From Chloroflexota bacterium (GTDB lineage: Bacteria > Chloroflexota > UBA11872), in contig JAPOWQ010000006.1 in the NCBI GenBank assembly GCA_026707585.1, positions 1-64,000 on the forward strand: 64,000 nucleotides of DNA, given 5' to 3'. Below the pieces are notes generated by a model. It worked only from the letters and a program-made list of their open reading frames with translations. It had not been told where the DNA came from and did no database searches. The translations under genes and the position numbers were made by a program. This document shows, piece by piece, positions 15,149 through 15,849 of this stretch (position 1 is the first letter of the stretch; every line of letters begins with the position of its first letter).

Positions 15149-15607
15149 CTAGCCCGCGGCGCGCAGCGTGCGCAGGGCCCAGCGCCAGTGGCTGAACGCG
15201 GACAATTCGTTGTGGTGGAAGTCGCTGACCAACCCCGCTTCGTCAATAACGTAGGTCACCCGCAGGTTTTGCTCCCCGGAATCGGGCCTGAGATCGTAGA
15301 GGCCGCCCACATGGCCATCAGCATCACAGGCCAGGGGCAGGTCAATCCTCAAGAACCTGAAGTACGTGGCCAGACGCCGTAGCTTTTTCTCCTGAGCCGA
15401 GCTGATGCCGACCACCACGGCGTTATGGTCCGCCATCCGCCGCTGGGATTTTCCAAATCCCACGTTCTCGGCCATTCAGCCGGGGGTTAAGGCTCCCGGG
15501 AAGAAAAAGAGGACAACCCTGGTTCCCCGGAGGTCGGAAAGCGTGAACTCTCCGCCGGCGAGCAGGGTGATGGTGAAGTCCGGCGCCGCGCTTCCTGTCG
15601 CTAGCAT
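15149..15607 (-). CDS. peroxiredoxin, probable selenoprotein (in-frame TGA at the peroxidatic position)
   Basis: From ATG 15607 the minus strand reads MLATGSAAPDFTITLLAGG, then RVVLFFFPGALTPG, then TGA (15478-15476), and continues in the same frame as MAENVGFGKSQRRM... to 15149. Read through it is a 152-residue AhpC/TSA-type peroxiredoxin. The canonical active site is P-x-x-x-T-P-G-C; here the Cys codon is exactly the TGA (codon 44), and no other defect is seen in the frame. A hairpin with a GGA loop starts 14 nt downstream, as expected for a bacterial SECIS. No cysteine lies close after residue 44, so a 1-Sec mechanism is implied. The alternative is a TGC-to-TGA pseudogene; sel genes are not in this window. 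Confidence 0.8.
15444..15462 (-). promoter_or_regulatory. candidate bacterial SECIS element
   Basis: In the minus-strand transcript TGGGATTT-GGA-AAATCCCA gives a perfect 8-bp stem with a 3-nt loop beginning GG. The first loop G is 22 nt after the UGA. Bacterial SECIS elements sit just 3' of UGA inside the coding region, with a G in the first loop positions about 16-37 nt from the UGA, so both spacing and loop fit. Confidence 0.7.
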
Positions 15608-15706
15608 GACTCCAAATCCAAGAAGTGTGAGCATTCCGCCCACACAGGATGACCGGCGGCCGCCCAGTAGACAATCGGGGGTACGCCTTCAATCAAGCGA
15701 ATCGGG

Positions 15707-15768
15707 CGCCGCCACGATACGGCCCGTCTGGGCAGCGAGATCTACGAGCGGGATGTCCGTTGGAGGCA
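15707..15768 (+). pseudogene. fragment of the 'ETARLGxEIYERDIR' family, copy 3
   Basis: Reads RHDTARLGSEIYERDVRW in one frame and then loses similarity. Third trace of the small partner gene in 8.3 kb. Confidence 0.6.
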
Positions 15769-15849
15769 ACTCCCTGCGGAGCTCCGGGTGATCCAAGGCA
15801 GCCTGAACGCTGCGCACGAAGCTGTCGTGCGCCCGGCCGTGCGTAGATC

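Follow-up and report, generated by a model that had tools for sequence, protein, structure and literature searches.

Results

The window analyzed here, a stretch of DNA with a full length of 64,000 nucleotides (nt), carries on its minus strand a selenoprotein peroxiredoxin (Prx) gene at positions 15149 to 15607. The frame runs from the ATG at 15607 to a TAG at 15149 to 15151 and comprises 152 codons when the UGA within it is read as selenocysteine (Sec); GGAG just before the ATG (15610 to 15613, minus strand) is a possible ribosome-binding site, a weak one that lacks conservation in relatives. The single internal stop of the frame is the TGA at 15478 to 15476, codon 44, in the context FFFPGALTPG[TGA]MAENVGF. 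As the first-pass annotation had proposed, this stop occupies the place of the peroxidatic Cys in a frame that is otherwise intact over its 152 codons: the catalytic Cys of two homologues of known structure, M. tuberculosis BcpB (5epf) and one from Burkholderia (5enu), aligns to position 44, which is Cys in all 15 Cys homologues aligned. With Cys substituted at position 44, the translated product matched the AhpC-TSA domain (PF00578; E value of 1e-23) and Redoxin (2.7e-15). The PGALT segment (15485 to 15499, minus strand) supplies Pro37 and Thr41 of the active-site motif PxxxTxxC/U, each shared by 90% or more of 27 sequences, and Arg116, encoded at 15260 to 15262 (minus strand), is invariant in these 27 sequences; from general knowledge of peroxiredoxins, it is presumably the active-site Arg expected in this family. 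The gene therefore combines an AhpC-TSA domain with PxxxTxxU, the combination by which Sec-peroxiredoxins of the TxxU kind are recognized. On the opposite strand, an open reading frame of 128 amino acids (window positions 15405 to 15791, plus strand) lies antisense to the Prx gene and appears conserved in relatives; this conservation probably mirrors that of the Prx gene, and the frame is probably not a gene.

The host genome (3.92 Mb, 95.6% complete) is a draft of 75 contigs whose nearest named relatives are metagenome-assembled genomes (MAGs) of Chloroflexi/Chloroflexota, so that it is probably a MAG too, and a single base change would suffice to turn a Cys codon into TGA. A sequencing or assembly error at a true TGC or TGT, or a dead gene, could thus have produced the internal stop. 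However, all 10 orthologues that cover the site, the gene itself and its copies in nine further genomes, have TGA there, and the copies range down to 72% in protein identity. Eight of the nine relatives carry full genes that are 72 to 91% identical to the one in the window, and one carries a gene split over two contigs (91 to 93%); an eleventh copy (genome G016) begins past the TGA site at a contig edge and is outside this count. Homologues carry either Cys or Sec at position 44, while the orthologues all have Sec: although one base change would turn TGA into a Cys codon, no orthologue has such a codon there. Furthermore, the remaining frame is intact, and dN lies below dS both before the UGA (0.01 to 0.12 versus 0.19 to 0.40) and after it (0.05 to 0.19 versus 0.21 to 0.51), which indicates purifying selection on both halves of the gene. 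The identical TGA in nine other genomes excludes the misread TGC that the first-pass annotation had named among the observations that would overturn its reading, and its conservation across genomes leaves an error or a pseudogene with a vanishingly small probability.

The same comparison bears on an arrangement of two genes, in which a 55-amino-acid upstream peptide ends at the TGA and a 108-amino-acid protein starts from the ATG at 15475 directly after it. The TGA-ATG sequence is conserved, and re-initiation is formally possible; however, Met has only one codon, so that the conserved ATG at Met45 is no evidence for a start. Moreover, the two halves jointly make up one peroxiredoxin domain, splitting them would deprive most orthologues of their sole chalcogen active-site residue, and Sec machinery is present in the genome, as described below. 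We therefore regard two genes as highly improbable and treat the locus as one continuous Prx gene.

Copies of this gene are not found throughout the genus: in genomes G002, G003, G005, and G007, which have the Sec machinery, no copy of the Sec-Prx was detected. No close relatives were found on plasmids, where the best identity was about 35%. In most of the genus relatives that show that side of the gene, the neighbors are two genes, one alcohol-dehydrogenase-like and one HAD-like, as named from their sequences. The isolate names RHO and COS among the relatives suggest an origin from reef sponges.

The first-pass annotation had also called for a search of the genome for selA, selB, selC, and selD, and all four are there. 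The host genome encodes a tRNA-Sec with anticodon UCA, SelA (508 bits), SelB (332 bits; a GTPase domain, a SelB beta-barrel, and a SelB-wing_3 domain as the winged-helix tail), and SelD (370 bits), whose gene has one in-frame TGA of its own (HGAG[TGA]ACKL). Within the genus, tRNA-Sec was found in 12 of 13 genomes and selA scored above the cut-off in all 13, and therefore the Sec machinery is not an artefact of binning. These findings also weigh on the reading of the UGA as Trp or Cys through a recoded genetic code or a suppressor tRNA. Such recoding is generally known from other bacteria, but the tRNA-Sec is the only tRNA with a UCA anticodon among the scanned loci, the tRNA-Trp that was seen has CCA, and selA, selB, and selD are all present. 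In addition, the read-through TGAs examined sit at known selenoprotein sites (SelD, UGC type, UxxC type, and TxxU). Recoding is thus very unlikely, and Sec is the residue that we assign to codon 44.

Downstream of the UGA lies a hairpin (15462 to 15444, minus strand; TGGGATTT-GGA-AAATCCCA) with an 8-bp stem and the loop GGA at 15454 to 15452. The UGA and the loop are 21 nt apart, which places the first loop G at nucleotide 22 after the UGA, as described in the first-pass annotation; the coordinates given there all proved correct. Bacterial SECIS elements are expected to have a loop of 3 to 9 nt, a stem of 4 to 16 bp, a G in the first two loop positions, a distance of 16 to 37 nt from the UGA, and an MFE of −7.5 or lower (PMC13188914). 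The hairpin agrees with each of these published rules (loop of 3 nt, stem of 8 bp, GG, 21 nt), and its energy is −7.6 kcal/mol for the bare hairpin, barely past the limit of −7.5, and −10.5 for the UGA plus 36 nt. Together with the sel genes and the residues found at position 44, each computational check suggested in the first-pass annotation thus favored its reading. Nevertheless, the same general rules are satisfied by 160 of the 1,657 TGAs in the window, a background of about 10% per TGA at which they do not serve as a discriminating test. The first-pass annotation had rested its case on the agreement of two features, the UGA and the hairpin; both are real, but their coincidence is weaker evidence than was implied, and the decisive evidence for a selenoprotein is comparative.

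The folding z-score of the hairpin, −1.2 to −1.4, is only moderately unusual, and the hairpin had no match among the Rfam SECIS families. Conservation of synonymous sites was rejected as evidence for the hairpin, with 4 of 6 sites in the hairpin versus 41 of 79 in the rest of the gene (P = 0.40). The stem is preserved in every orthologue, save for the outermost pair in G020. In G020, the change of AAA to AAG retains a U-G pair, and in G010 the change of GTG to TTG is paired with that of CAG to CAA, by which the stem is extended.

We then defined a strict signature from the Prx hairpin itself, consisting of a 3-nt loop G[GU]N located exactly 21 nt after the UGA and a stem of at least 6 bp. In the DNA of the host genome examined, 2 of 3,110 TGA sites carry it, the Prx gene and an apparent chance site in locus L015, and it was found at no other TGA of the window. 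Outside this 3,110-site background, the signature occurs at two more selenoprotein candidates of the host genome, L070 and L071, as well as at the counterparts of these two in relatives (L084 and L081); a separate Sec-Prx in L032/L033 has it too. The spacing and the loop were read off the Prx gene and were then encountered in genes with a different protein sequence around the UGA, which constitutes out-of-sample support. The sequence comparison is thus good evidence that the hairpin would be the target site of SelB. It is possible that the hairpin is shared through distant common descent, as all these genes belong to the AhpC-TSA family.

Both further candidates lie on the minus strand of their loci. 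L070 (G000:C30:98500-100700, TGA at locus position 1066) is a UGC-type Prx-like or TlpA-like gene with the context FMWASW[TGA]GCRAQL and a GGT loop 21 nt after the TGA, and it resembles the known class of UGC-containing Prx-like selenoproteins. L071 (G000:C72:105500-107700, TGA at locus position 1143) is a UxxC Prx-like gene (FYRAFW[TGA]GTCRTQL) with a GTG loop at 21 nt, and L081 is its counterpart in G002. The SelD locus (L018, G000:C49:10463-14389), itself a selenoprotein candidate, is an exception to the 21-nt spacing, as the GTG loop of its hairpin lies at 33 nt. In other Chloroflexota, a TGA stands at the peroxidatic Cys of the Prx-like genes L074, L075, L076, L077, L078, L079, L080, L082, and L083; in several of them a loop of the CGUG type follows at 21 nt, and in L079, L080, and L082 the hairpin is near 37 nt. 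These nine genes suggest that Cys and Sec were exchanged several times and that the SECIS has more than a single layout.

An AlphaFold2 model of the Prx (pLDDT of 89.9, pTM of 0.88) has the Prx fold and places residue 44 within the first turn of a helix that spans residues 42 to 53; its best match in the PDB is M. tuberculosis BcpB (TM of 0.85). The resolving position of PrxQ (+5) is V, L, or W in the orthologues, which departs from the two-Cys pattern of BCP/PrxQ, and seven of the nine full orthologues lack Cys altogether.

Discussion

Collectively, the gene in the window is a real Sec-peroxiredoxin, and its BCP-like Chloroflexota clade is new within the known TxxU kind. Very probably the gene is expressed as a selenoprotein, a 1-Sec peroxiredoxin with a BCP/PrxQ-like fold into which Sec is inserted at the UGA by means of SelB and the hairpin; expression, Sec insertion in vivo, and peroxidase activity are what we infer for it. 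In the proposed mechanism, SelB:GTP:Sec-tRNA(Sec) would bind the hairpin at 15462 to 15444, and the UGA at 15478 to 15476 would be decoded as selenocysteine to yield the 152-residue protein. The conserved P37, T41, U44, and R116 suggest that this protein would reduce hydroperoxides: Sec44, near the N terminus of the active-site helix and placed by Pro37, Thr41, and Arg116, would attack H2O2 or an organic hydroperoxide and become a selenenic acid. As a resolving Cys is missing at +5 and most orthologues contain no Cys whatsoever, the selenenic acid would need an external reductant, which may be a low-molecular-weight thiol or a redoxin. An operon partner was rejected for this role, since the adjoining genes include no recognized redoxin gene. 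More tentatively, the protein could represent a Chloroflexota-specific, essentially Cys-free 1-Sec Prx with a reductant unlike the known partners of Prx; the SelB of its clade might read one minimal SECIS (loop G[GU]N of 3 nt at a distance of exactly 21 nt) that different selenoprotein genes share.

A standard annotation pipeline would cut this gene short or divide it in two, and therefore the antioxidant repertoire of these Chloroflexota would be under-called. The fixed 21-nt/G[GU]N hairpin offers a specific search pattern for more selenoproteins in the clade. With Sec as its sole chalcogen active-site residue, the Prx also provides a clean natural case for comparing Sec with Cys in rate and resistance to overoxidation, and a case for asking what reduces a 1-Sec Prx. 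The literature searches made found no reports on this Chloroflexota clade of Sec-Prx and none on selenoproteins of sponge Chloroflexota.

In a tree of 34 Prx sequences, the clade lies closest to L069 (G020:C1:209500-213000, 1583-2026 minus), a Cys paralogue of 45 to 47% identity encoded in G020. As G020 also has the Sec orthologue, it offers a Sec/Cys pair that occurs naturally within a single genome. The tree calls for at least three Sec/Cys changes and most simply for five, although its long branches make exact counts unsafe. A single origin of the Sec forms was rejected, since several changes are required, and the tree is consistent with repeated Sec/Cys interconversion among these peroxiredoxins.

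Sec-peroxiredoxin is said to have been first studied in Eubacterium acidaminophilum, by Soehling in 2001. Those with TxxU (PF00578/COG1225) form an established family of selenoproteins (PMC13188914, PMC9312934); the Sargasso Sea set contains 43 of its genes (PMC1088965) and a 2006 survey 12 (PMC1794560). Like this family, the Prx of the window has PxxxTxxU with Sec at the peroxidatic position and a bacterial SECIS just downstream (PMC13188914, PMC9312934, PMC1088965, PMC1794560); unlike it, the protein is shorter and has no conserved resolving Cys. Assignment to PrxU as the specific family (NCBIfam peroxi_PrxU, NF040737) was rejected, as the score was 38.4 bits versus a cut-off of 270 bits. 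The fold is close to that of BCP/PrxQ proteins (TM of 0.85 to 0.86 and 27 to 34% identity to M. tuberculosis BcpB, 5epf, and S. solfataricus Bcp1, 3drn), whereas Sec stands in place of Cys, the PrxQ resolving Cys at +5 is missing, and the score against NCBIfam PRK09437 (BCP/PrxQ) is 55.6 bits versus a cut-off of 140 bits. Finally, host-genome candidates of both the UGC-containing and the UxxC Prx-like selenoproteins (PF00578) share the 21-nt/G[GU]N hairpin with the Prx of the window; in those two classes, however, Sec lies in a thioredoxin-like UGC or UxxC motif, whereas here it lies in TxxU.
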